A DNA stretch of 64,000 nt from Sphingomonas bacterium (GTDB lineage: Bacteria > Pseudomonadota > Alphaproteobacteria > Sphingomonadales > Sphingomonadaceae): assembly GCA_028289965.1 (NCBI GenBank), contig JAQGKS010000052.1, positions 1 to 64,000 of the forward strand, read 5' to 3'. Numbering within the stretch: the first letter of the stretch is position 1; every line of letters begins with the position of its first letter. Below the pieces are notes generated by a model, which was not told the DNA's origin, ran no database searches, and worked only from the letters and a program-made list of their open reading frames with translations. Shown here one piece after another: positions 4,872 through 28,457 of the stretch. The position numbers and the translations under genes were made by a program.

Positions 4872-5316
4872 ACCCTACAAGATCAAACTGCGGGTGATGC
4901 CGTGGCATGCTTCGCCGCAAAGTTGCGATAACATCGATTAATGAGGCGGCCTAGTTTCGCGGAACTCCGGTCTTAGCGGGGCTAGCAGTTGGGACGAGGA
5001 CGGATGAAGAACAACCCTGTGGTGAAAGTTCCGCAGGACGCGAGAAGGAGCGCGCTCCTCATCAACGAGCCTGGAGGTCGCCACCTACTGCCCGAACGAC
5101 AGCTTTCGTTCTCGAAGGTGCACCCGACAACTCGCGCAGATCGCAAGGCCAAGCGCAGGCAATATCCGTTCGCTTCCGGGAATGTGATCTCCGCCAACCG
5201 CCCCTCTCTCCACTACAATCCTGTAGGCCTGCTACGGGTTCGGCCGAACCTTCATCTGAGTAGGTGGTTCTGGGTTGGGCGGGACAGGTGCGTCCGATCC
5301 GTGAAGGACAATCGCG
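4872..5316. other. Non-coding upstream region between divergent genes
   Basis: This stretch separates the GH1-RmlD gene (minus) from the broken PAS gene (plus). It includes a comparatively AT-rich part around 4915-4950 that could hold the promoters. Short frames here (for example 4982-5197 on the minus strand) look random. No RNA gene or terminator is recognised. Confidence 0.4.
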
Positions 5317-5776
5317 ATGCGGCCCGATGCCGAAGCCCTGCTCCAGAGCGCGGTAAATGCGGTCCATCGCGGAGAGAGGCTGCACGAGGCGCTCGATCAG
5401 CTTCCCGCTGCCGTCTACGTGGCCGACCGAGATGGTCTGGTCACGCACTTCAATCAGGCTTGCGTGGCCTTGCGGGACGCAGGCCCGTTGCTCAGCACGA
5501 CCGATGGTGCGTCACGTGGAAACTGTTCACGCCAGACGGCGAAAACCTGCCGATGAGCAGTGCCCGATGGCGCTGGCGATCCGGGACCAACGGACGGTGC
5601 GCGGCATCGAAGCCATTGACGGCGCTCGTGCACTTATGGCCGATCAGGTAATGCTCGGCTGCCCAATCGACCTGAACAACCGCATGGAGGTCACGGATCA
5701 GAGCGGCAAAGTGCTGGCAGTGATCCCTTTTCGGGAGTTGATAAAGATCAAGGACAATGGGCTAACGCCGAATTAG
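5317..5776 (+). pseudogene. Frameshifted PAS-domain gene fused to a DUF6894-like tail
   Basis: Three reading frames together spell a sphingomonad-type PAS protein. Frame 1 (from ATG 5317) gives LDQLPAAVYVADRDGLVTHF, frame 3 gives RWCVTWKLFTPDGENLP (about 5498-5550) and frame 2 gives EQCPMALAIRDQRTVRGIEA (about 5555-5612). A missing base at about 5552 and another disruption near 5480 explain the frame changes. The frame-2 tail then becomes RALMADQVMLGCPIDLNNR and VLAVIPFRE, which resembles the C-terminal half of DUF6894 proteins, so the junction near 5612-5620 also looks chimeric. The DUF6894 assignment is from memory of the family pattern. Confidence 0.65.
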
Positions 5777-5885: not shown

Positions 5886-6650
5886 ATGAGCCGCTCAGAC
5901 CATGACCTTCAGCTTTTCGTCGATCGCCTTACGGCGCGCTCGGTCCTCACCGTGGAAGAGCAGCAAGCCATCCTCGCTTTGCCTACTCACCGCACCGAAC
6001 TCCGGGCCAAGCAGGATTTCGTGCACGACGGCGACGAAGAGGTCACTCATAGCTCTTTCATCGCTTCCGGTTTGGTGGGTCGTTTCGGCCAGACGGTCAC
6101 CGGCGCGCGCCAGATCACTGCTTTCCACATTCCCGGCGATATGGCCGATCTCCACTCCGCAGTACGACCGGTCGGCGTTGGGGGACTGACCGCCCTGTAT
6201 GATACCACGATCCTGCATGTGCCACATGCCGCGATTCGCAGGTTGGCGGCGCACTATCCGGCGGTGGCCGAAGCTTTCTGGCGGGATTGCATGCTCGACG
6301 CAGCGATCCTCATGCAGTGGGTGGTCAACGTCGGGAGGCGCGACGCGCGGACCCGGATCGCCCACATCCTTTGTGAGATGTCGATCCGGTTCGGCGGCGA
6401 TCGGCAAATCCTTCTCGACTACCCTTTCTTCGCCACCCAGGATCAGCTTGCTGATGCTGTCGCATTGACGAACGTGCACGTGAACCGCTCTCTCAAAGCG
6501 CTTCGGACCGAGGGACTTGCTACGTTCAGACATGGGGCGGTCGAGATACATGACTGGAAAAAGCTGGCCGAGGTAGGCGAGTTCGATTCCGCCTATCTCG
6601 TCGCCGACACCGCGCCGGAGCGGCAGAAGCGGTTGATCGGTACTGCGTGA
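5886..6650 (+). CDS. Crp/Fnr-family transcriptional regulator
   Basis: The 254-residue protein has an N-terminal cyclic-nucleotide-binding-fold region (about residues 20-130, including FHIPGDMADLHSA) and a C-terminal winged helix-turn-helix (about residues 165-230, including TQDQLADAVALTNVHVNRSL). No Cys cluster like that of Fnr is present, so it is unlikely to be an iron-sulfur oxygen sensor. Such proteins in sphingomonads are usually orphan stress or metabolic regulators. It sits downstream of the broken PAS gene and is followed by decayed sequence, so its targets cannot be inferred. Confidence 0.88.
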   Translation: MSRSDHDLQLFVDRLTARSVLTVEEQQAILALPTHRTELRAKQDFVHDGDEEVTHSSFIASGLVGRFGQTVTGARQITAFHIPGDMADLHSAVRPVGVGGLTALYDTTILHVPHAAIRRLAAHYPAVAEAFWRDCMLDAAILMQWVVNVGRRDARTRIAHILCEMSIRFGGDRQILLDYPFFATQDQLADAVALTNVHVNRSLKALRTEGLATFRHGAVEIHDWKKLAEVGEFDSAYLVADTAPERQKRLIGTA

Positions 6651-7225: not shown

Positions 7226-7438
7226 TCCCCTGCCGGATCCTTTTCGATATATGGTGGATGCAGCGTCGTCCCGTGGATGCCTGTCAGATTTACGGCACCC
7301 CCGTGGGCCTCCGCCCTCTACTCCCGGTTCGAAGGTGACGCGGTCAGCTGGTGATGTGGGCAGCGACCGGCTTTCCTCATGTTAGTGTGATGTCACGCGG
7401 ACTTAGACATGATCGCATCCTTGGCAGGAGGATCAGTC

Positions 7439-7675
7439 ATGCGAGAAGACGACGAAGCCAGCTATCACGTCAGGCGGGTGCGCGAAGAGATGGATCTCGG
7501 TTACTGCGCTGAGAGCAGCGCAGCCGCGTCAGCACATCTACAGCTTGCCGCCCTGCACATGCGCCTCGCCAGCAAAACCTCAGGCAGCACGAGCCGCGAA
7601 CCCGCGATCGAAGAGCGCGACCGCAACCCGAGAGTCCCGCTTTCGCTCGTCCAGGTGTCCCTTGAAGCGCCTTGA
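7439..7675 (+). CDS. Small hypothetical protein (78 aa)
   Basis: ATG 7439 is preceded by a strong AGGAGG about 7 nt upstream, which is why I prefer it to the ATG at 7409. The product begins MREDDEASYHVRRVREEMDL and contains SAHLQLAALHMRLA, reminiscent of short helical sphingomonad proteins of unknown function that carry an H-x-E/Q-L-A-x-x-Y/H motif. No transmembrane segment or catalytic motif is visible. The C-terminal third is low-complexity and may be altered, since the next recognisable sequence is a pseudogene. Confidence 0.5.
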   Translation: MREDDEASYHVRRVREEMDLGYCAESSAAASAHLQLAALHMRLASKTSGSTSREPAIEERDRNPRVPLSLVQVSLEAP

Positions 7676-7679
7676 GCAT

Positions 7680-8037
7680 GCCGCGCTGGCGCGATCGGGG
7701 AGCTGGGTCATCAAAGATGAGGGGTACAATATCTTGATGCAAGTCGAGCCGCCGGGCGGCGCCGACCCCGAGACGTTCGCCCTGAGTAAAGACGGGCATA
7801 CCCTCGTTGTCTTCACCGAGGGCGAGGGCAGCGTGACGACCCAGGGCGGCCGCACGGCGCTGTCGGCAAAGGTGGGGGAAGAGCCGGAAGGTGTCGCGAT
7901 TACGCCGGACGGTGCGCGCCCTGTTCGTCGCGTGCGAAGCGGCCGACCAGATCGCGATGCGGGACGCGCCGACGTTGCCGCACGGAGGTCCGGCCATGAT
8001 CGACGACGAGGTCACTCGCGAGGCTTGGTGCGGCTAA
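7680..8037 (+). pseudogene. YVTN-type beta-propeller protein remnant
   Basis: Frame 3 gives ADPETFALSKDGHTLVVFTE and KVGEEPEGVAITPDGA, which are typical blades of YVTN/NHL-like beta-propellers. At about 7918 the frame must shift to continue with LFVACEAADQIA. The start is missing and only about two blades remain of a family that usually has seven. Such propellers often accompany PQQ- or cytochrome-linked oxidation genes. This one is clearly dead and marks the beginning of a long stretch of gene debris. Confidence 0.65.
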
Positions 8038-8299
8038 GCACCGCAGCGGAATGTGGTGGAAGATGCGCGTGCGCTGCTCGCAATGCCGCCGCGGACGGTT
8101 CAGGCCGCTCCCGAGGTGCAGCGGCTTTGGCTTCGCTGGGGCTGATCTCAGCGCTGGGGACGGCCGCAACGGTAATGGCGCGGCGCGCCGCTGATGCGGC
8201 TCCTAGCCGCTGAGCAGCGGCAGAACTCAGCGAACCCCAGCCACCAACATGGTCGCCCGTCCATCGCAGGCCGCCGCCACCGGGTCTGATCCACCAGCC

Positions 8300-8590
8300 A
8301 GTCGAGCAGCCCTGCCGTGAGCACGGCCTCGGCGGCGGCGGTCAACCGCGAACCGCGCAAGTGGAGCGACCGGCACCGGTTCGACGTCGGCCCGCAGACG
8401 AGCGGGCATGTCCATTTCGGCTTGGCATCCATCGGTGCCTCGCCAGATGGTCGCGCGGCTCGAGGTTAAGGTGGTGCTCGGCGCCCCGGCGCGCCCCTCG
8501 CTTCACGCCCGGAGCCGCCGAACGCCGGCCCAACGAGACGCTGTACACCGTCGGGCGCCTGCTTGTCGAAGCTGCTCAGCGACGGCTAGC
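8300..8590 (+). pseudogene. Cytochrome P450 C-terminal remnant
   Basis: Three frames assemble the end of a P450. NREPRKWSDRHRFDVG and SGHVHFGL are in one frame, GIHRCLA (the heme loop, Cys codon about 8436-8438) in the next and QMVARLEVKVVLGA in the third. ERRPNETLYTVGRLLVE completes the usual C-terminal strand. At least two single-base indels interrupt the heme-binding loop, so no functional enzyme can be made. Everything N-terminal to the meander region is missing. It belongs to the decayed cluster shared with the oxygenase, MFS and ALDH fragments. Confidence 0.7.
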
Positions 8591-8602
8591 AGGCATCCTA
8601 GG

Positions 8603-8757
8603 CGCCGTGGCGGAGAGCCCCGAAGAAGATCTCCTTCGGCACCAGCGGCAGGAACAGGGAGTCGACGACGTCAATCAGCACCGCGGGTCGATCAGCGGCT
8701 GGATACGATCATAGTCGCCGATGGCCTTCGAGAGGCGCAGGCCCCTCGTCCGGGAAG
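8603..8757 (-). pseudogene. 4,5-dihydroxyphthalate-decarboxylase-like N-terminal fragment
   Basis: On the minus strand GLRLSKAIGDYDRIQPLIDP is followed, after one missing base at about 8685, by AVLIDVVDSLFLPLVPKEIF and FGALRHGA, then a TAG. This matches the N-terminus of the periplasmic-binding-protein-like 4,5-dihydroxyphthalate decarboxylase family (L-x-L-AIGDYDR-x-x-PL ... PEE-x-FFRAFRH). Only about 50 of some 330 residues remain. The family assignment rests on motif recall and would need a profile search. Confidence 0.5.
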
Positions 8758-8770
8758 GGTCTCCGCGGGC

Positions 8771-9600
8771 TCAATGGATGATGTAGTAGCGCATTATCGG
8801 GCATTCCGGATGCCGCTCGCCGACGCCTACGAAGCAGTGGTCCGCCATCCACTGATAGGGCCCGGGCGGCGCCTCGAACCATCGCAGATCGCCGGCTGCG
8901 CCATCGCGTGGCATGATCCCGATCCAGCTCGGCAGCGACGGATCGAACGCCCAGCGGTGCCCGCCGGCATGCATTCGGCTATCCTCGGCCGTGGTCTGCG
9001 TCACCGCGAAAATCACTCAACGCTCGCTCACTGCGGGATCGTGCTGGAAGCTGGCATAGGGCGCCTCGAAGGCGTGCTCGGTCAAGAGCGCACCGGCGGC
9101 GTCGATCAGCTGCAGCGACATCGCGCGGCTGGCGAGCCTGTCAGCCTCGTAGCCGAAGCTCACCATTTCGCCTGTGACGGGATCAATCTTCGGGTGCGCC
9201 CACGAGGTCAGGCTCTGCAGCCGGCCGAATCGTGCCGGCCGCGCGTCGCCAGCATCGCTGGGTCGAGCTCGTGCGGAAGGCCATCCTCTTTGAGCGCGAA
9301 CAGCCGGCCGGCGTGGAAGACCACGCTGGGTCGCGGATGGCAAACATCGCGACTATGCCGTCACCGTTGATGTTGATGTCGTCGCCGGCGATCGGCGCGA
9401 AGCGCGGATCGGGGCCGCAGCAATAATAGGCGCAGCGATAATAGGGCCGGCCAAGCGAGTGGGCAGCCGGCCCTCCACCTCCAGGTCGCATACGTCCGCC
9501 TCGATCCGCCGCGGCTCGTTGATGCCGGTGACGGCGGGGACGCCTGGGAACGGCCGGAGCACGATGTCCCTCCAAATATGGTTCGGAGCCGCACGGTCTG
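8771..9600 (-). pseudogene. Carotenoid/lignostilbene oxygenase-family remnant
   Basis: Read on the minus strand, fragments in changing frames give NEPRRIEADVCDLEVEGRLP, GPDPRFAPIAGDDININGDG, LTSWAHPKIDPVTGEMVSFG, ALLTEHAFEAPYASFQHD and GIMPRDGAAGDLRWFEAPPG, the ordered hallmarks of retinal-pigment/carotenoid cleavage oxygenases, a family that includes lignostilbene dioxygenases. A roughly 15-bp duplication near 9425-9450 (a repeated TATTAT-GCTGCG unit) and several indels break the frame. About 830 bp remain of an expected 1.4 kb or more, so internal sequence is also lost. The enzyme family oxidatively splits stilbene or polyene double bonds. Confidence 0.72.
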
Positions 9601-9689
9601 TGCAGCGATCCGTGCCGCCCCGTCATTGGCCGCCATTTTTCCTATTGTTCCAGAGCCCGGCAAATATCCAAGGTGAAGGGATGGACGAC

Positions 9690-10395
9690 CGCGACATCTA
9701 CCGAGTCGATCGGCTTCCTCGCGCTCAAGGGCATGCGCCCGGCGCTCGTCGAGCGGACGCTGGCGCGCATCAGGGCGGTACCGCCGGGATCTAGGCTGGT
9801 AATGCGGGCGAGGCGCCGAGCAGCGCGCCGATTGCCGACCTGTTCCGAAACAAGCGCGCTGCTTCGACTATCGCGGCGTGGATCGCGCTTGGGATGAACA
9901 GCGCCACGCTCGATGCCTTGGTGTTCTGGATTCCCACGCTGACCGCGCGTGTCGGCGGCATCCTCGCCGCCCTATGTAATTGGCTATGCGATGGCGGGGC
10001 TGGGAAGCTACCGCGTGCTCGTTCCGGTCCACCTCGTCGCCGCGCCGCGCGTGGCGGCGCTTGGCTTCACGCTGTCCGCCGCGCCGATCGCACTGGCGGT
10101 GCTGATCGGACTGACGCTGCCAGGCGGCACCTCCGGCGTGCAGGGGTTGATAGCGCAGCTCTACCTGACAGCGGTCCGCGCCACCCGGTGGGCTGGGCGG
10201 TGGCGCTCGGTCGCTTCATCGGGCTAGGCGCGCCGCTGGAGATTGGGCGGTTGCTCTACCGCGACCTTGCACCGCACACGATCCTTCTCGCCTGTGCGGT
10301 GGGGCCGCTCCTCTCGGCGGTCGCGCTCATCATGCTGGCGCGGAATCGCGTCGGGCGGCAAGTCGACCGCCGCGTGGGGGAACGGTGCCATGACT
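9690..10395 (+). pseudogene. AAHS-type MFS transporter remnant (C-terminal half)
   Basis: Successive frames give IGFLALKGMRPALVERTLAR (the central loop after helix 6), APIADLFRNKRAASTIAAWI, ATLDALVFWIPTLTARVG, YRVLVPVHLVAAPRVAALGF and HTILLACAVGPLLSAVALIM. Together these are the second half of an aromatic-acid:H+ symporter-type MFS carrier. At least three frame changes are needed, and the first six helices are gone. It precedes an aldehyde dehydrogenase remnant, so carrier and dehydrogenase probably belonged to one former operon. Confidence 0.68.
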
Positions 10396-10733
10396 TAGGT
10401 GGGCGATCTCGTCTATGGCGGCGGCTGGCACCCGGCAGCGGCTAGCCGACGGTGCGGCCTCACGAGTCCGGGCGACGGGCGGTTGATTGCCGAGGTCGCT
10501 CGGGCGGGCCCGGGAGATGTCGGGCAAGCCATTGCCGCAGCGCGGAAGGTTGCAAGGTCTGGCGCAAGGTCGCGCCACTCGAGTGCGCGCGGATCCCGCG
10601 CTATCGGTCGGCGCGGAACCCCGGAGTTGGCGCTGCCCGGCCACCGACAATGGCAACCCGGTCAGCAAGATGCTGCCCGAGCGTCGCCGAGCTGCTCACC
10701 TTCACGCACCAGAAGAACATCGAAGTCGGCGTA
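10391..10733 (+). pseudogene. Aldehyde dehydrogenase N-terminal remnant, cut by an IS
   Basis: Pieces in different frames read MGDLVYGGGWHPAAA, LTSPGDGRLIAEVARAGPGD, VGQAIAAARKVA, WRKVAPLECARIP and TDNGNPVSKMLPE, the start of an NAD-dependent aldehyde dehydrogenase (betaine-aldehyde-dehydrogenase-like). The gene stops at the left end of the IS5-family element at about 10734 and no continuation is found on the other side, so insertion was accompanied or followed by deletion. The catalytic Cys region is absent. Confidence 0.65.
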
Positions 10734-11566
10734 GGTCAGGACCCATTGATGTGAGTGTCGCGATCTGATTCAGGCTCCGCAAGGAGACTGGGCATGAGCG
10801 ACCTGTATTGGCTGACGGATGAGCAGATGGCGCGTCTGCAGCCGTATTTTCCCAAGAGCCATGGCAGGCCTCGGTCGATGACCGGCGGGTGCTGAGCGGC
10901 ATCGTTTTCGTCAATCGCAACGGGCTGCGATGGTGTGATGCACCCAAGGACTATGGCCCGCACAAGACTCTGTACAACCGTTGGAAGCGGTGGGGCGAGA
11001 GGGGCGTGTTCCTCCGCATGATGGAGGGGCTGGCTGCCGCGGATGCCGAGCCCAAGACCCTCATGATCGACGCGACCTATTTGAAGGCGCACCGCACGGC
11101 ATCGAGCCTGCGGGTAAAAAGGGGGTCTTGGACGCCTGATCGGCCGCACCAAAGGGGGCATGAACACGGAGCTGCACGCCGTGACCGACGCGAACGGCCG
11201 TCCGTTGAGCTTCTTCATGACCGCCGGGCAGGTCAACCACTACACCGGTGCGGCAGCCCTGCTCGATGAGCTACCAAAGGCACAGTGGCTGCTCGGCGAT
11301 CGCGGCTATGACGCCGATTGGTTCAGGGATGCGCTGGAAGCCAAGGGAATCCAGCCCTGCATCCCAGGTCGGAAATCCCGCAACGAACCGGTCAGGTGCG
11401 ACAAGCGCCGCTACAGGCGCCGCAGCCGCATCGAGATCATGTTCGGCCGCCTGAAGGACTGGCGTCGCGTCGCGACCCCGCTACGACCGGTGTTCAACCG
11501 TCTTCTTCTCCGCCGTCGCCCTCGCTGCCACCGTCATCTTCTGGCTATGACCAATGAGTCCTGACC
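10734..11566 (+). mobile_element. Decayed IS5-family insertion sequence
   Basis: The element has matching ends. The left end reads GGTCAGGACCCATTG from 10734, and the right end, read on the minus strand from 11566, reads GGTCAGGACTCATTG, so they differ at one of 15 positions. Its 833-bp length fits small IS5-group elements. It encloses one transposase reading frame that is now interrupted. No obvious target-site duplication flanks it, as expected if flanking DNA has since been deleted. Family assignment rests on the transposase. Confidence 0.7.
10794..11550 (+). pseudogene. IS5-family transposase, frameshifted
   Basis: ATG 10794 follows an AAGGAG site and starts MSDLYWLTDEQMARLQPYF. A lost base at about 10876 shifts the frame to LSGIVFVNRNGLRWCDAP and PHKTLYNRWKRWGERGVF. 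The run of A and G at about 11115-11125 requires another shift to reach TKGGMNTELHAVTDANGRP and LLGDRGYDADWFRDALEAKG. An extra C near 11480 displaces the normal C-terminus VFFSAVALAATVIFWL. The second site resembles positions where some IS5 members use programmed frameshifting, but the other two are plain damage. DDE residues lie in MIDATYLKAH and GDRGYDAD. Confidence 0.75.
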
Positions 11567-11849
11567 CTTGAACTTGGAGACACGTCGCGGCGTTCGTGGT
11601 TCTGCGGCTCCAGACTCGCCGATCTTCGCATCGTTGTCACCGCGGGCCCAGCAGGGCCAAGGCAGCGCTGCACCACGGACGAGGCGACGCGATAGCCGGC
11701 CGCACAGCTTACGCTCGATGTTGCGGGACACGGCGGGGACGCCGCCAGCTTCCCACGTAAGATTATCGAGCAGGCGCTCGCCCATCCATCCACGACAAGG
11801 CGCAGCGGGCGTAGCGGCGCGGCACTGCGAGCTTCGACGAGAGCTGACG
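11567..11849. other. Debris between two IS remnants
   Basis: The stretch between the IS5-family element and the istA remnant has only short, unconvincing frames. It may be further IS21 or host debris. On the minus strand LTWEAGGVPAVSRNIERKL is the most protein-like piece, but I do not recognise it. Confidence 0.3.
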
Positions 11850-12140
11850 GACGAGTGGACAGCATATCTTGCGGGTTGAAGCGCCGGGTCAAGATTTGCT
11901 CCTTGCCGGTGAACACCGTCGTCACCGCCGTTTTTATATTCTCGTAGATGCCCCGCGTCCGCACGCCGCCGAAGAAGGCGAACGCCTGCGCAGGCGCGTC
12001 GAACAACATCCCCTGACCCTCACCCGGATACGCTCGCACATAGATCGCGCGCGACGCGCATAGACGCATCGGCTTGCCGGCGATCTCGACGTCCTCGTGG
12101 CTCCAGTCGAACGGACAGGCCTCGCCGGCCAGACCATCAG
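11850..12140 (-). pseudogene. IS21-family IstA transposase remnant
   Basis: Minus-strand frames give GEACPFDWSHEDVEIAGKP, MRLCASRAIYVRAYPGEGQG and YENIKTAVTTVFTGKEQI, corresponding to the catalytic-core region of IS21 IstA (FDWS-x-E-x-x-x-IAG, AYPR-x-x-Q, RGIYDNMKTAV, F-x-GKER). The N-terminal DNA-binding part, the C-terminus and istB are absent and the frame changes at least once. It is a fragment, not a mobile element. It lies directly downstream of an SDR fragment on the same strand. Confidence 0.65.
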
Positions 12141-12188
12141 CCGGATGAAGGCCGGCGCATCCACCACGTCCCGGGGCCGGTCAAGCCG

Positions 12189-12285
12189 CTACCGCGCAGC
12201 ATAGCGACGGACCGCGGCGTACGACCCGGCGATGCCTTTCGCCGCGCCCGTGACGAGCACGCGCTTGCCCCTGAGATCGTGCATC
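12189..12285 (-). pseudogene. N-terminal fragment of an SDR
   Basis: From ATG 12285 (minus) the frame reads MHDLRGKRVLVTGAAKGIAG and then loses similarity. This is the first strand and the TGxxxGIG cofactor loop of a short-chain dehydrogenase. The rest is replaced by IS21-derived sequence. It diverges from the MFS remnant at 12385, copying the SDR/MFS divergent arrangement seen intact at 57.0-59.3 kb. Confidence 0.6.
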
Positions 12286-12324
12286 CAACGCTCCCGCATT
12301 GCCGGGATCCAAACGAAACGGTTT

Positions 12325-12354
12325 GACGGATCGTATATTGAATATGTAGGCGAA
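12325..12354. promoter_or_regulatory. Operator-like AT-rich element before the MFS remnant
   Basis: TCGTATATTGA (12331-12341) follows TTGACG (12324-12329). The same TTGAC(G/C)-GATCGTATA layout precedes the intact paralogous carrier at 20.0 kb. It keeps one half-site of the TNGT-N3-ACNA operator described elsewhere in this annotation. Confidence 0.45.
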
Positions 12355-12384
12355 GTTCCAGACAAGAAGATTGAGAGGGGGCGG

Positions 12385-12765
12385 ATGCAACAGCCCAGTG
12401 CGACGATTGCGCCGAGCGGCCTCGATGCCGGGCGCCTGCTCCGCGTCGCGCCGTTCGCGGCGCTACCGGCGCTGTCCCCGTGCAGCGGCTTCTGCCTGCA
12501 TGCGCTGCCGCTGGTCGCGCCGCTGATCCTCACCGGCTGGTCGATCCCGGCGCGCACGCTGGCGCCGACGCCTGGCAGCATGATCGGCACCCCTCGCGCC
12601 GGCTGGGTAGATCGGGCGGATCGGCGGTGTGCCCGGCGCCTATGTCGGCGTTTTCGCGCTCGATCGCGGCAGCGCGGCGGGCTTCTTCCGCACCATCTGG
12701 GGGCTGGCGATGACGGCGCTCGTCATCTTCGTGCTGCTGAGCGGCGGCCGCCGCCGGCCGCCTGA
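12385..12765 (+). pseudogene. Internally deleted copy of the AAHS-type MFS carrier
   Basis: ATG 12385 begins MQQPSATIAPS and continues GRLLRVAPFAALPALSPCSG, FCLHALPLVAPLILTGWSIP, closely matching the start of the intact carrier at 20028. It then jumps to GTPRAGWV and, in other frames, to a C-terminal piece reading GAYVGVFALDRGSAAGFFRT and ALVIFVLLSGG. Only about 125 of some 437 residues survive, so several internal deletions removed most helices while the promoter and both ends stayed. The gene cannot make a carrier, but transcription from its promoter could still enter the SnoaL-like genes downstream. Confidence 0.75.
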
Positions 12766-12795
12766 TCCTTGATCCAAGACACGAAAGCGACCGGC

Positions 12796-13221
12796 ATGCA
12801 GACCGATCTGATCATCGAACCGGCCAGCGCCGCAATGCAGGCGGCGGCGGAGAGTTTCTTCAAGCTGCTCTATCTCGATCACGACTTCGCCGGCGCGATG
12901 CGCAGGCATGTCGCGCCGCACTTCACCGAGCATAATCCCGACCTTCCCAATTCGCCCGCCGAGCAGCTCGCCTGGTTCGAGCAGCGCGCTGCGGCCAACC
13001 CGGATTTCTATACTGCGGAAACGCAATGGCAGACTCGGATCGTGCACCGGTTCATCGCCGCCAACTATCTGATCGTCCACTATAATATGTCCGTCGGCCC
13101 GCTCGATCGGGGGCGCATGTTCGCCGATTTCTGGCAGTTCGACGGCGATCGGATCGTCGAGCATTGGGACGTCGTCCAGCCGATCCCAGAAAAGACCCAG
13201 AGCGGGAATATGATGTGGTGA
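12796..13221 (+). CDS. SnoaL-like (NTF2-fold) protein
   Basis: The 141-residue product from ATG 12796 (a TTG at 12769 would add nine residues) has the NTF2/SnoaL-like fold pattern and the C-terminal motif IVEHWDVVQPIPEK ending SGNMMW. This is typical of the family annotated as predicted SnoaL-like aldol-condensation enzymes. Such proteins are small alpha+beta barrels that bind hydrophobic or aromatic ligands, and the reaction is rarely known. The conserved H-W and TEHNPD motifs are intact. The gene is followed with 2-nt spacing by a two-domain homologue and two SDRs, so it probably starts that operon. Confidence 0.82.
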   Translation: MQTDLIIEPASAAMQAAAESFFKLLYLDHDFAGAMRRHVAPHFTEHNPDLPNSPAEQLAWFEQRAAANPDFYTAETQWQTRIVHRFIAANYLIVHYNMSVGPLDRGRMFADFWQFDGDRIVEHWDVVQPIPEKTQSGNMMW

Positions 13222-16388: not shown

Positions 16389-16447
16389 ACGGCGTTTTGT
16401 CGTCAGCGCGACGGGTCTTCAAGGTCTTTGCAAGGGGGATACACCGG

Positions 16448-17344
16448 ATGGCGGTGATCGTGAGCGGCGCCTCGGGCGAGCTCGGCGCGATGACGGTGGC
16501 CGCGCTGGCCGAGCGCGTCGACCCGCGCGAGTTGATCCTCGTCACGCGTGAACCCGAGCGGCTCGCGCACTGGCGCGATCGCGGAGCCGACATTCGCCAC
16601 GGCGATCTCGACGCGCCCGAGACGCTGGCGCGCGCCTATGCCGGCGGCGATCGGCTGCTGCTGATCAGCACGGCGGCGGTCGGGCCGATGCGGCAGCGCC
16701 AGCACCGCGCGGTGATTGACGCCGCCGCCGCCGCCGGCGTGCCGCATATCGTCTACACCTCGAGCGCGGGGATCCATCCGCGCAACCCCTGCTTCGTGAT
16801 CCCGGATCATATCGCGACCGAGCGGATGCTCGCCGACAGCGGACTCGCGGTGACGATCCTGCGGGTCAATTCCTATGCCGACATCCTCGTCCACGCGATC
16901 GCACCGCAGGCGATCGCAACCGGCCGATGGATCGCAGCGGCCGGCGAAGGCGCGGTCGGATTCGTCGCCAAGCGCGACGTCGCGCGCGCCGCCGCCGCCG
17001 CCCTCACCGACGACAGTCATGCCGGCGCGATCTACGAGATCACCGGACCCGAACTGCTGACCAACCGTGACGCCGCGAGGATAGCGGCCGAGATCAGCGG
17101 GTGCCCGATCGCACTGATCATCCCCGAGGACGCACCCGTCCCGGGAATCGCGGCGGCCGAGCAGGAGCAGGCGTCGGAGTGGATCGGACCGTTCACGATG
17201 GCGGATCTCCAGTCGTTCGATCGCGCGGTGCGCGCGGGCTATTACGCGGTCTGCACCCACCATGTGGAAATGGTCACCGGCGCTCCCGCGACGTCGCTGC
17301 GCACATTGTTCGAGGCCGCTGCCGATGCGCGGAGGGCGGCGTGA
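16448..17344 (+). CDS. NmrA-like NAD(P)-binding oxidoreductase
   Basis: ATG 16448 is preceded by AAGGGGG, so it is preferred to an upstream start at 16397. The 298-residue protein has the atypical-SDR cofactor loop VSGASGELGAM and no YxxxK, as in NmrA / NAD(P)H:quinone-oxidoreductase-2-like proteins. FVAKRDVARAAAAAL and YEITGPELLT are typical of that family. Members act either as NAD(P)H sensors or as small quinone or azo reductases. Its stop overlaps the next start (TGATG), so it is translationally coupled to the Old Yellow Enzyme gene. Confidence 0.82.
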   Translation: MAVIVSGASGELGAMTVAALAERVDPRELILVTREPERLAHWRDRGADIRHGDLDAPETLARAYAGGDRLLLISTAAVGPMRQRQHRAVIDAAAAAGVPHIVYTSSAGIHPRNPCFVIPDHIATERMLADSGLAVTILRVNSYADILVHAIAPQAIATGRWIAAAGEGAVGFVAKRDVARAAAAALTDDSHAGAIYEITGPELLTNRDAARIAAEISGCPIALIIPEDAPVPGIAAAEQEQASEWIGPFTMADLQSFDRAVRAGYYAVCTHHVEMVTGAPATSLRTLFEAAADARRAA

Positions 17345-20027: not shown

Positions 20028-21341
20028 ATGCAGCAACTCAGCCAGACGAACACAGCGGTCCCCGGCGGCAACTTCTTCCGCGTCGCGCCATTTGCGGCCC
20101 TTCTGTTCCTGTTCCTCTACAGCGGCTTCTGCTTGCAATCGATGCCGGTGGTGGCGCCGCTGATCCTGCAGGACTGGGGAATTCCGGCTCGTGCGCTGGC
20201 CACGCCGCTGGCGCTGACCTCGGTCGGATCCGGGCTCGGCGCGATACTCGGTGGTTTTCTGGGCGACGCGTGGGGCCGCAAGGTGCCGATCATCGGCTTT
20301 GCGGCGCTGCAGGGCGCGGCGATGGCGCTGACCGGGCTTATCACCGGCCCTGACCTGCTAAATCCACTGATGTTCGCGGTCGGGCTCGGGCTGGGTGGCT
20401 ATTTCTCCTCGGCGATGGCGCTGATGACCGAGCTTGCGCCCGCCAAGCGCCGCGGGCTGATCATCAGCCTCGCGATCGTCTTCGGGCCGATCGGGCTCGG
20501 GCTGTGCTCGCTCCTCGCCGGCGTGCTGGCACCCCGCTACGGCTGGCCGGTGCTGTTCTTCGTCGGCGGCGCCGCGAGCATCGCCTTGTTGTTCACGATC
20601 GTCTTCCTTGTCCCAGAATCGCCCAAATATCTGGCGCGCTTCGCCGATCGGCGCGGCGAGCGCGACCGGATCCTCGCGCGGCTGCAGTTGAGCGACCAGG
20701 ACGAACCGGCGCCTGCGCCAGGCGCAGCCCCCGCGGAGAAGATGTCGGCGCTCGCGGTGCTGCGTGCCCAGCTTGGCCTGACCCTGGTGCTGTGGCTGCT
20801 GTTCTTCCTTTATTATGTCCTCGGCTCGACCGTGCTTGGCTGGGTGCCGGTGGTCTTCTCCTCCGCCGACTTCCCGATCTGGATGGCCAGCCAGTCGCTC
20901 TTCTACTGGACGCTCGGCAGCGTGGTCGGAACGCCGCTCGCCGGCTGGGTGATCGGCCGGATCGGCGTGTACAACGCAGCCGTGCTCTCGTCCGCCGCCG
21001 CGGTCGCCGCGCTGGGGGTGCTGGCATTCGTCAAGCTCGATCCCGCGATGGGATGGCTGATCATGGCGACGCTGCCAGTCGCCGGCTTCGCCGTCGCGGG
21101 CGTCGTGACGTCGCTCTATACAATGGCGGCCGACTTCTACCCGACCGAGATGCGCGCGACCGGCATCGGCCTGGCGGACGCGGTCGGCCGCGTCGGCGGC
21201 GTGCTCGGTGCCTATGTCGGTGTGCTCGTGCTCGATCTGGCGGGTGCGTCGGGCTTCTTCGTCCTGATCTGGTGCCTCGCCGCCGCCGCGCTCGTCATCT
21301 TCGTGCTGCTGCGCGGCCACCGTCGCGCCGCCGTGGCCTGA
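20028..21341 (+). CDS. MFS transporter, aromatic acid:H+ symporter type
   Basis: The 437-residue protein has twelve predicted helices, the loop 2-3 motif GGFLGDAWGRKVPIIG (the DxxGR(R/K) signature) and MTELAPAKRRG after helix 4, as in AAHS carriers such as PcaK and VanK. The central loop is short and charged (LARFADRRGERDRILARLQL). It probably imports an aromatic acid across the inner membrane by proton symport. A degraded copy of this gene lies at 12.4 kb. It has its own promoter region with an operator-like element and no close operon partner. Confidence 0.88.
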   Translation: MQQLSQTNTAVPGGNFFRVAPFAALLFLFLYSGFCLQSMPVVAPLILQDWGIPARALATPLALTSVGSGLGAILGGFLGDAWGRKVPIIGFAALQGAAMALTGLITGPDLLNPLMFAVGLGLGGYFSSAMALMTELAPAKRRGLIISLAIVFGPIGLGLCSLLAGVLAPRYGWPVLFFVGGAASIALLFTIVFLVPESPKYLARFADRRGERDRILARLQLSDQDEPAPAPGAAPAEKMSALAVLRAQLGLTLVLWLLFFLYYVLGSTVLGWVPVVFSSADFPIWMASQSLFYWTLGSVVGTPLAGWVIGRIGVYNAAVLSSAAAVAALGVLAFVKLDPAMGWLIMATLPVAGFAVAGVVTSLYTMAADFYPTEMRATGIGLADAVGRVGGVLGAYVGVLVLDLAGASGFFVLIWCLAAAALVIFVLLRGHRRAAVA

Positions 21342-25938: not shown

Positions 25939-25986
25939 CATCTACGATAAAACGCCGCAAGCACCGGCTAAAAGAGGGGATGGAGA

Positions 25987-28374
25987 ATGGCAGTTCGTCA
26001 TCGGAACTACGCGTTGCACCGTGTTCGCGCTCGCGTGGGCGCCACGTCCATGGCGGCGCTCTCGCTTGCCTTGGCGGCGCCTGCGATCGCGCAAAGCGCG
26101 GATCCGGCTAGCGACGCCACTGCGGAGGCGACGTCGTCCCGACTTCAGGACATCATCGTCACCGCACAGTTCCGCAACCAGACCGTGCAGGACACGCCAC
26201 TCGCCATTACCGCGATCAGTGGTGAAATGCTCGAGGCGCGCGGACAGACGACGATCAACGACATTGCCGGCCAGTCGCCGAACGTCACGCTCGAAAAGGG
26301 CGTGGGCCAGCGCGGCAGCGGCCTGATCGCCTATATCCGCGGGATCGGCCAATATAATGCCGCCCCGTTCTACGAGCCTGGCGTCGGCACCTATGTCGAC
26401 GACGTCTACATCGCGTCGATGAACAGCGCTTTGTTCCGTTTGCTCGACCTCGATCGCGTCGAGGTGCTGCGCGGGCCGCAGGGCACGCTCGCCGGCAAGA
26501 ACTCGATTGGCGGGGCGATCAAGCTGTTCAGCCGCAAGCCGACCGGCGACGGATCGGGCTATGCCGAACTCACCTACGGCCGGTACGATCGGGTCGAGGG
26601 CCGTGCCGCGGCCGACTTCAAGCTCGCGGAAAACCTGTTCGTCCGCATCAATGCCGCGGCGAGGAGCGAAGACGGCTACGTGAAGCGGCTCGATTATGGG
26701 TGTCTCAACCCCGGCTCGGGCTTTCCGACGCAGGTCGGCGTCGGCCAGAATTGCGTGCTCGGCACCGCCGGCGGCGAAAGCTATGTCGGCGGACGCCTCG
26801 CGATGCGCTGGCTGCCCACCGACAAGATCGAGATCAACATCAGCGGCGATTACACCGCGGAGCGGTCCGATCCCGCGCCCGAACAGTTGGGTTTCATCAC
26901 CAGCCAGGCCGCGGCCGATGCGGCAACGAACGCCCTGGTGCCTTTCGGCCTGCCACCGACCAGGATCGCCGGCATCGGGCTCGACAGCAGGTTCGAGACG
27001 GGCGGCACTTACACGACCTACTCGGACTATTGTAACCGCCTCGCGTTTGGCGGCGCAGGCGCCTATTGCTTCGACACCACGCTCAAGACGAATATCTGGG
27101 GTGTGCAGGGCAACATCAACGTCGAGCTCGGCGAAAATGCCAATCTGACGTCCGTCACTGCCTATCGCGGCTTCAGCACCTATACGCCAAGCGACAGCGA
27201 TGGCACGCCGCTTCCGTTCAGCAACCTTCAGGTCGGCGCGCACGGGCATCAGTTCTCGCAGGAATTGCGCGTCAACGCCGATCTGACCGACAATATCAAC
27301 CTTACCGTCGGCGGTTATTATTTGAAGTCGTTCGTCAATCTGGATCAGCGCGTTGACATCCAGTATTTCGGGTTCCTGTTCTTCAACGATGACCGGGCGC
27401 CTTCGACGTCGAAGGCAGCCTTCACCCAGTTGATCTGGAGCCCGATCGATCGCCTTCACCTGACCGGCGGGCTGCGCTACACAAAGGAGCGACGGACCTA
27501 TACGATCTTCCGCACCGTGCCGGACGGCAGCAATACACCTATTCCCGGCTTGTTTGGCAACGGGGGCACCTTTCGCCGCGGTCGCCTGGATTATCGTCTC
27601 AACGCCAGCTTCGACGTGACGGACGACATCATGATCTACGGCCAGTATGCCACGGGTTTCAAAAGTGGCGGCGTCAACGGCCAGCCCTTCCTTCCCAACC
27701 AGGTCTTCCCGTTCGGCCCGGAGACAATCGGTACCTATGAAGCCGGTGCCAAGTTCACGCTGCTCGATCGCCGCTTGCGCTTGAACCTGGCAGCGTTCCG
27801 CAGCGACTATACCAATATCCAGCTCCAGCCGCTCACCTGCCCGCCCCCGTCGCTGCCCACCGATCCCTGCGCTGCGGTGCAGAACGTCGGCAGCGCGTAC
27901 ATCAAGGGCTTCGAGGCCGAGCTCAATCTGCGGCCGGTAGAAGGCCTCAACATCGACGCGTCGCTCGCTTACCTTGATTTCGACTATTACCGGATCAACG
28001 ATGTGCCGACGATCACGCTCAACATGAAGGCGCCGTTCACGTCCGACTGGAAAGCGAGCATCGGTGCCCAATATGCATTCGATATGGGCAGCACCGGCAC
28101 CATCACCCCGCGCATCGACGTCACATACCAGTCTTCGCTGTTTACCGATCCGGTCAACGGCCCGAACAACCGGATCGCGCCGCGCACGCTCGCCAACGCG
28201 CGGCTGGGCTGGGCCAACGCCGGCCAGGACTGGGAAGTCGCACTGGAAGTGACCAATCTGTTCGACAAATATTATTACGCAAACAAGATCGACAACACGA
28301 CCTTCACGGGCTCCGTCTATACATTCCCGGCTCCGCCGCGGCGCTGGGCAGTCTCGCTGAAGCGCAACTTCTGA
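25987..28374 (+). CDS. TonB-dependent outer-membrane receptor
   Basis: The 795-residue precursor has a signal peptide ending ALAAPAIAQ, a TonB-box-like DIIVTAQ, a plug domain (about residues 60-175, including VEVLRGPQGTLAGKNSIGGA) and a 22-strand-type barrel ending in the aromatic C-terminus RRWAVSLKRNF. It should import a bulky substrate across the outer membrane with TonB energy. Its position at the head of the catabolic island, with the island's operator at its promoter, suggests that the substrate is the compound degraded here rather than iron. A 15-bp hairpin follows the stop codon. Confidence 0.95.
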   Translation: MAVRHRNYALHRVRARVGATSMAALSLALAAPAIAQSADPASDATAEATSSRLQDIIVTAQFRNQTVQDTPLAITAISGEMLEARGQTTINDIAGQSPNVTLEKGVGQRGSGLIAYIRGIGQYNAAPFYEPGVGTYVDDVYIASMNSALFRLLDLDRVEVLRGPQGTLAGKNSIGGAIKLFSRKPTGDGSGYAELTYGRYDRVEGRAAADFKLAENLFVRINAAARSEDGYVKRLDYGCLNPGSGFPTQVGVGQNCVLGTAGGESYVGGRLAMRWLPTDKIEINISGDYTAERSDPAPEQLGFITSQAAADAATNALVPFGLPPTRIAGIGLDSRFETGGTYTTYSDYCNRLAFGGAGAYCFDTTLKTNIWGVQGNINVELGENANLTSVTAYRGFSTYTPSDSDGTPLPFSNLQVGAHGHQFSQELRVNADLTDNINLTVGGYYLKSFVNLDQRVDIQYFGFLFFNDDRAPSTSKAAFTQLIWSPIDRLHLTGGLRYTKERRTYTIFRTVPDGSNTPIPGLFGNGGTFRRGRLDYRLNASFDVTDDIMIYGQYATGFKSGGVNGQPFLPNQVFPFGPETIGTYEAGAKFTLLDRRLRLNLAAFRSDYTNIQLQPLTCPPPSLPTDPCAAVQNVGSAYIKGFEAELNLRPVEGLNIDASLAYLDFDYYRINDVPTITLNMKAPFTSDWKASIGAQYAFDMGSTGTITPRIDVTYQSSLFTDPVNGPNNRIAPRTLANARLGWANAGQDWEVALEVTNLFDKYYYANKIDNTTFTGSVYTFPAPPRRWAVSLKRNF

Positions 28375-28383
28375 CAATATCGA

Positions 28384-28416
28384 GCGAGCGGATGGAAGAA
28401 CCTTCCATCCGCTCGC
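28384..28416 (+). terminator. Hairpin after the TonB receptor gene
   Basis: GCGAGCGGATGGAAG pairs perfectly with CTTCCATCCGCTCGC around a 3-nt loop. No U-run follows, so it is more likely a partial terminator or mRNA-stabilising hairpin that lets some transcription continue into the DoxX-like genes. Confidence 0.65.
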
Positions 28417-28457
28417 ATACATGTCGGATCTTGGGCGGGGCGAAGGGGCGACAGTCG

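Follow-up and report, generated by a model that had tools for sequence, protein, structure and literature searches.

Comparison with known aromatic-dimer pathways

The closest described systems to the locus reported here, a row of gene remnants at 7.75-12.75 kb of contig JAQGKS010000052.1 from a Sphingomonas bacterium, are sphingomonad pathways for aromatic dimers. In Novosphingobium rhizosphaerae LY the pinoresinol (pin) genes encode the reductase PinZ, the dioxygenase PinU and the DUF3237 protein PinX of one pathway, with translational coupling reported between pinZ and pinU (PMC12607616). For the phenylcoumaran and diarylpropane pathways (phc, pcf, ldp, lsd), the enzymes reported include lignostilbene dioxygenases, the decarboxylases PhcF/PhcG, which are PinX homologues, and NTF2-family lyases (PMC12997858). 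The window analysed here is the first 64 kb of an 86-kb contig in a metagenome-assembled genome (MAG; 3.0 Mb, 301 contigs, 87% complete). Judged from its sequence, the row is most probably a graveyard of pseudogenes left by gene decay (probability about 0.87, a figure for decay in the stretch and not for the mosaic origin discussed below).

The row has a lignostilbene-type dioxygenase (RPE65 family) and a DUF3237 protein in common with the pin genes, and it appears to share enzyme families with phc, pcf, ldp and lsd. We take PinZ to be a member of the NmrA family, and SnoaL-like proteins, one of which is encoded just after the row, are presumably of the NTF2 family. Enzymes of related families serve in pin and in the other sphingomonad dimer pathways, so the part of the row with dioxygenase and DUF3237 can by analogy be assigned to aromatic-dimer catabolism. 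Unlike the pin genes, dioxygenase and DUF3237 are here broken and fused to each other on the minus strand, with an intact NmrA gene 7 kb away on the plus strand, and pinZ-pinU-type coupling was not found (NmrA at 16397, plus; dioxygenase remnant at 8861-9559, minus). In four relatives (loci L060, L068, L069 and L070) a dioxygenase open reading frame (ORF) overlaps an NmrA ORF with a DUF3237 gene nearby, a gene layout that resembles pinU-pinZ; unlike those paired enzymes, the dioxygenase of the row falls outside their clade.

Two further comparisons concern the other catabolic pieces. The closest solved relatives of the cytochrome P450 end are CYP199A P450s. A Methylocella tundrae plasmid (L126) carries a P450, a Rieske oxygenase, an MFS carrier and a gene like that for 4,5-dihydroxyphthalate decarboxylase (DHP), with three of the broken families within 7 kb; it is unlike the row in gene order and strands, is 28-49% identical to the pieces, and has no RPE65 or DUF3237 match.

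A row of broken genes

All six frames were translated and compared with Pfam, solved structures and plasmid genes (tblastn), and intact relatives were aligned to the window by a purpose-written protein-to-DNA alignment that allows frameshifts. Because such an alignment can pick up chance matches, each was rerun on 100 dinucleotide-shuffled versions of this DNA. Pfam, run on whole X-masked frames, returned RPE65, a weak DUF3237, TauE (below cut-off) and transposase domains; it is blind to the weaker pieces, for which the other searches were needed. A six-frame tblastn without composition correction was not used further, since it returned many spurious high-GC matches. The remnants, which lie on mixed strands, are as follows:

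7752-7977, plus: remnant of a YVTN / PQQ-associated beta-propeller, covering residues 95-172 of a 325-residue reference without either end, 1 frameshift
8335-8570, plus: remnant of a cytochrome P450 of CYP199 type, C-terminal ~80 of 410 residues with the haem-cysteine stretch, 3 frameshifts
8610-8740, minus: DHP-like remnant, residues 4-47 of 329, 1 frameshift
8777-8878, minus: end of a DUF3237 gene, C-terminal ~34 residues, joined in frame to the RPE65 remnant
8861-9559, minus: remnant of a lignostilbene-type dioxygenase (RPE65 family), covering residues ~1-278 of ~490 with an internal gap of ~48 residues, 3 frameshifts, 1 stop
9703-10391, plus: first MFS carrier remnant, residues 200-450 of 455, N-terminal 200 gone, 3 frameshifts
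10408-10693, plus: aldehyde dehydrogenase (ALDH) remnant, residues 20-119 of 495, 3 frameshifts
10734-11568, plus: insertion sequence of the IS5 family, complete at both ends; aligned to two Sphingomonas sp. LK11 copies, it shows three one-base gaps in each alignment
11878-12239, minus: piece of an IS21 IstA transposase, ~121 of 503 residues left, with 1 frameshift and 1 stop
12198-12285, minus: possible N-terminus of a short-chain dehydrogenase (SDR), ~25 residues, weak
12385-12754, plus: remnant of a second MFS carrier, in three pieces (N-terminal, middle and C-terminal) separated by two internal deletions

Summed over eight proteins (IstA, IS5 and SDR excluded), about 898 of 3107 parental residues (29%) are left, and most pieces are without half or more of the parent gene. 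The first-pass annotation had described every gene as interrupted by indels or deletions, and this holds: 15 frameshifts are distributed across seven genes (YVTN, P450, DHP, RPE65, first carrier, ALDH and IstA), premature stops occur in the RPE65 and IstA remnants, and the second carrier has two internal deletions. The first frameshift alignment of the second carrier was out of register, so its shift and stop were left out of these counts and the alignment was replaced by three DNA pieces, which are 75%, 83% and 76% identical to the carrier gene at 20028-21341.

None of the 100 shuffles reached the observed score for 11 of the 12 references, which represent nine families, two of them with a second reference (YVTN, P450, DHP decarboxylase, DUF3237, RPE65, first AAHS-like carrier, ALDH, IstA and second carrier, the last with a score that rests on the out-of-register alignment). 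The exception was the SDR, whose score was reached by 7 of 100 shuffles and whose best E value was 0.056. All eight families previously listed within 5 kb were recovered in the listed order, seven of them well supported and the SDR unproven; the DUF3237 C-terminus was absent from that list and is added here.

Single remnants were also recognised by independent searches. One unmended frame of the YVTN piece matched solved structures at E 0.005, and among plasmid genes the piece matches PQQ-associated beta-propeller proteins. For the P450 end, one frame had CYP199A4 among its best solved structures, weakly (0.008 at best), and reading across frames gave up to 53% identity over 79 residues to P450 genes of relatives. 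The DHP start is 60-64% identical over 45-47 residues to the four best-placed of 43 plasmid records, two annotated as 4,5-dihydroxyphthalate decarboxylase (64% and 60%) and two as ABC substrate-binding protein. The first carrier is 27-30% identical to MFS transporters in the 12 listed of 84 plasmid records; these are annotated only as MFS, hence the AAHS label is putative. The ALDH piece matched four plasmid-borne ALDH genes at E 0.002-0.008 and solved structures at 7e-4.

The dioxygenase-DUF3237 chimera

A single frame of the RPE65 remnant matched structure 5v2d at 2.6e-28 and lignostilbene dioxygenase I at 6e-26, while the same frame matched a carotenoid 9,10-dioxygenase at 2.5e-4 and apocarotenoid oxygenases at 0.06-0.07; the remnant is closer to stilbene-cleaving than to carotenoid-cleaving enzymes. 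Pfam detected the RPE65 domain, and DUF3237 at E 0.03. In one frame of 81 residues, residues 2-53 match RPE65 proteins and residues 46-80 match DUF3237, which was identified by Pfam and by relatives.

The genome itself contains a gene order from which such a chimera could arise. On contig C50 (L080:11912-15602) an RPE65, a DUF3237 and a second RPE65 gene, the last cut by the contig end, follow one another in the same direction with spacers of roughly 0.2 and 0.5 kb. With DUF3237 just downstream on the same strand, one deletion would yield the chimera.

Four histidine columns, which we take to be the iron-binding residues of the dioxygenase, are conserved in 32, 32, 32 and 31 of 32 relatives. 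Two are kept in the remnant and two are deleted, and the dioxygenase is a relic only. In a tree, it sits on a long branch beside, and outside, a 20-row clade that includes the four NmrA-overlapping enzymes (support 88/76), with a program warning that its placement is unsure.

This genome retains RPE65 genes at six sites, at one of which the contig end truncates the gene, and four of its contigs carry DUF3237 genes. Because RPE65 paralogues persist at six sites, the cleavage capacity was probably kept rather than lost, and the intact paralogues may have made the genes of the row dispensable. Elsewhere in the genome, contig C143 (L083, 7764 bp) has two identical RPE65 genes in opposite orientation; it is palindromic and perhaps an assembly artefact.

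Insertion sequences within the row

The first-pass annotation had placed an IS5-family element and an istA fragment among the remnants, and both are present. The IS5 element, with a Pfam IS5 transposase domain, spans end to end, and over 562 bases it shares 92% identity with another copy of this genome that lies at a contig end. It appears to have inserted and then decayed itself, which makes the damage look old. The istA fragment is 75% identical to plasmid IstA genes and matched a solved IS21-type transposase only at 0.8. By their relatives, the insertion sequences indicate a sphingomonad host.

Outside the window, traces of this IS5 were seen on C50 and C80. A 60-base piece lies on C50 at 4998-5057. 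On contig C80 (L081:15181-16362), a CYP199-like P450 likewise falls into three tblastn pieces that occupy two frames; a second copy of this IS5 is located about 3 kb away, where the contig ends.

Control for sequencing error

For comparison, relatives with 29-53% identity were aligned to another 21 ORFs of the window, 17 of which proved free of shifts and stops. In two, every shift lay upstream of the ORF (one with stops at or after its own end as well, the other with stops upstream), and one had a shift 17 bases before its end, in the last codons. The remaining one, at 12835-13221 in the SnoaL-like gene, aligned badly to a tandem reference and cleanly to four other relatives. One of the 21, at 25942-28422, is an antisense shadow of a TonB receptor gene. 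Twenty comparison ORFs are free of internal shifts, except for the one in the last codons, making sequencing error an unlikely source of the damage.

Search for an intact counterpart

The mixture of families had been said to mirror an intact island at 25-64 kb, whose genes include the following:

24628-48000: TonB receptor, two VanA-type Rieske oxygenases, PQQ dehydrogenase with cytochrome domain, ALDH, GMC oxidoreductase, Meth_synt_2 protein, SnoaL and SDR

The resemblance does not extend to five families of the row: when intact references for RPE65, DUF3237, P450, DHP and YVTN were searched against the remainder of the window, none scored above 60 bits. ALDH and carrier references do match there, and the families common to row and island (ALDH, carriers, SDR) are generic.

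Relatives were sampled as 20 RPE65 loci, mostly chosen for a nearby DUF3237 match, so that DUF3237 counts there are biased, and 20 P450 loci fetched from the best matches listed. Among the longest ORFs (at least 90 bits, p values uncorrected), NmrA was found in 6 RPE65 and 0 P450 loci (p 0.02), ALDH in 7 and 0 (p 0.008), GMC in 6 and 0 (p 0.02) and PQQ dehydrogenase in 4 and 1 (p 0.34); for Rieske oxygenase the counts were 5 and 6, and for SnoaL 0 and 0. These counts support the view that relatives place RPE65 near families alive in this window (NmrA, ALDH, GMC and PQQ dehydrogenase). In the four relatives with overlapping dioxygenase and NmrA ORFs, DUF3237, PQQ dehydrogenase and ALDH are in the same locus.

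Counts for the graveyard families were redone on raw DNA at 40 bits. No P450, DHP or propeller reference or piece matched in the 20 RPE65 loci, and no RPE65, DUF3237, DHP or propeller match was found in the 20 P450 loci. The carrier piece itself matches one P450 locus (L105).

The DHP and AAHS pieces matched none of 297 other genomes of the family (E 1e-3 and 1e-8). Across the class, the DHP piece matches 11 of 326 other genomes and the carrier piece 1 of 288; the 13 DHP or carrier loci from 11 class genomes had no P450, RPE65, DUF3237 or YVTN match, and relatives of island genes in them were Rieske (5 loci), GMC (2), ALDH, HIBDH-like and MFS (1 each). A contig scan with the dioxygenase piece gave one locus, in a Myxococcales MAG at 42%, with no other piece of the row. 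A DNA search of 148 genomes with 7400-10720 found short matches only, none over ~200 bases outside the window, and two genus-level genomes were too diverged for comparison. The intact syntenic version that translated searches might have revealed was thus not found in the genomes and loci examined, which are a sample of all genomes, and the RPE65 and P450 references never occurred together in the 40 fetched loci. A literature search on sphingomonad catabolic pseudogene clusters and on carotenoid oxygenase with DUF3237 found no title on such a graveyard.

Origin of the row

The results support the view that the dead genes belong to aromatic-catabolism families and that the damage, as it appears in the sequence, is real and old. 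The genes that would have lost function are the dioxygenase with DUF3237, the CYP199-type P450, the DHP-type decarboxylase and a carrier, the ALDH, and the second carrier. Erosion would have proceeded through gene-joining deletions, indels of one or two bases, and IS5 and IS21 elements which themselves subsequently decayed, the clearest step being the putative single deletion that fuses the first half of the dioxygenase in frame to the DUF3237 end. Two points weigh against this reading: the genome is a MAG, which from sequence alone leaves room for a local assembly fault, and the references are only 30-66% identical to the catabolic pieces, which makes single frameshifts uncertain. Sequencing or assembly error in a living cluster is nevertheless very improbable, given the 20 comparison ORFs described above and the fact that at least half of the gene is missing from most pieces, a loss beyond the reach of small indel errors.

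As to what decayed, the sampled genomes favour a mosaic of at least two modules, the dioxygenase with DUF3237 and the P450 with DHP, and we consider this the simplest reading and a moderately probable one. The presence of the first carrier's reference family in 12 of 20 RPE65 loci against 2 of 20 P450 loci, and of ALDH in 9 of 20 against 1 of 20 on raw DNA, weighs against it, and slightly raised the odds of the alternative that one ancestral aromatic-dimer cluster, kin to the 25-64 kb island or continuing into the survivors at 12.8-18.5 kb, decayed in place. That alternative also draws on L068, L069 and L070, where RPE65, NmrA, DUF3237, PQQ dehydrogenase, one or two SnoaL, SDR and ALDH genes are united in one 20 kb locus (in part also in L060), on the intact SnoaL, SDR and NmrA genes directly after the graveyard, and on PinU, PinZ and PinX making up one pathway in N. 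rhizosphaerae LY (PMC12607616). It remains doubtful, since the P450, DHP and YVTN references are missing from all 20 RPE65 loci, the DHP and AAHS pieces from the 297 family genomes, and the dioxygenase remnant lies outside the NmrA-overlapping clade, on its long and unsurely placed branch. Less likely again is a junk landing site, in which unrelated fragments, already broken, were brought in by insertion sequences or transfer and never formed a working set here. The IS5 and IS21 pieces, the non-sphingomonad origin of the best listed relatives of the DHP and first-carrier pieces (Cupriavidus, Antarctobacter, Methylocella and Variovorax), and the P450, carrier and DHP-like genes within 7 kb on the M. 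tundrae plasmid are consistent with it, but the RPE65-DUF3237 fusion preserves a gene order present on C50, and several pieces are gene ends, as in-place deletions would leave.

The observations of the first-pass annotation are confirmed, and its interpretation that an older aromatic pathway was lost is partly supported: dead genes of aromatic-catabolism families are present, whereas a single cluster lacks an intact row and loss of the capacity is opposed by the RPE65 and DUF3237 genes elsewhere in the genome. A further, improbable reading sees in the row what is left of an undescribed pathway for aromatic dimers, in which a stilbene-cleaving dioxygenase, possibly of a separate lineage, was combined with four partners: a DUF3237 decarboxylase, a CYP199 P450, a DHP-type decarboxylase and a carrier; this five-part combination was not seen intact in any locus examined.

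The row is a case of ordinary gene decay with instructive detail, and knowledge of aromatic catabolism is unchanged by it. One place shows a bacterial catabolic module dismantled, with gene-joining deletions, small indels, decaying insertion sequences and a sharp border. It also holds a caution for annotators, that open pieces such as the RPE65-DUF3237 chimera should not count as genes.

Flanking genes

The damage is mostly confined to the row, with intact neighbours, but pieces upstream are also broken. At 5317-5776, PAS-domain and DUF6894 pieces in different frames lie upstream of an intact Crp/Fnr-type gene (5886-6650), indicating that degraded sequence starts before 7.68 kb. The G+C content of the stretch (63-69%) does not set it apart from its surroundings (60-71%). 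Decay ends sharply at 12.77 kb, followed by SnoaL-like, SDR and NmrA genes, of which two are:

12769-13221, plus: SnoaL-like gene, the first intact one after the graveyard, no frameshift or stop against four relatives
16397-17344, plus: NmrA-family gene, intact, 39-42% identical to the NmrA whose ORF overlaps the RPE65 ORF in four relatives

Contig C148 carries, at 76.8-78.0 kb (L079:12761-13984), a paralogue that shares 46% identity with the SnoaL-like gene at 13.2 kb.

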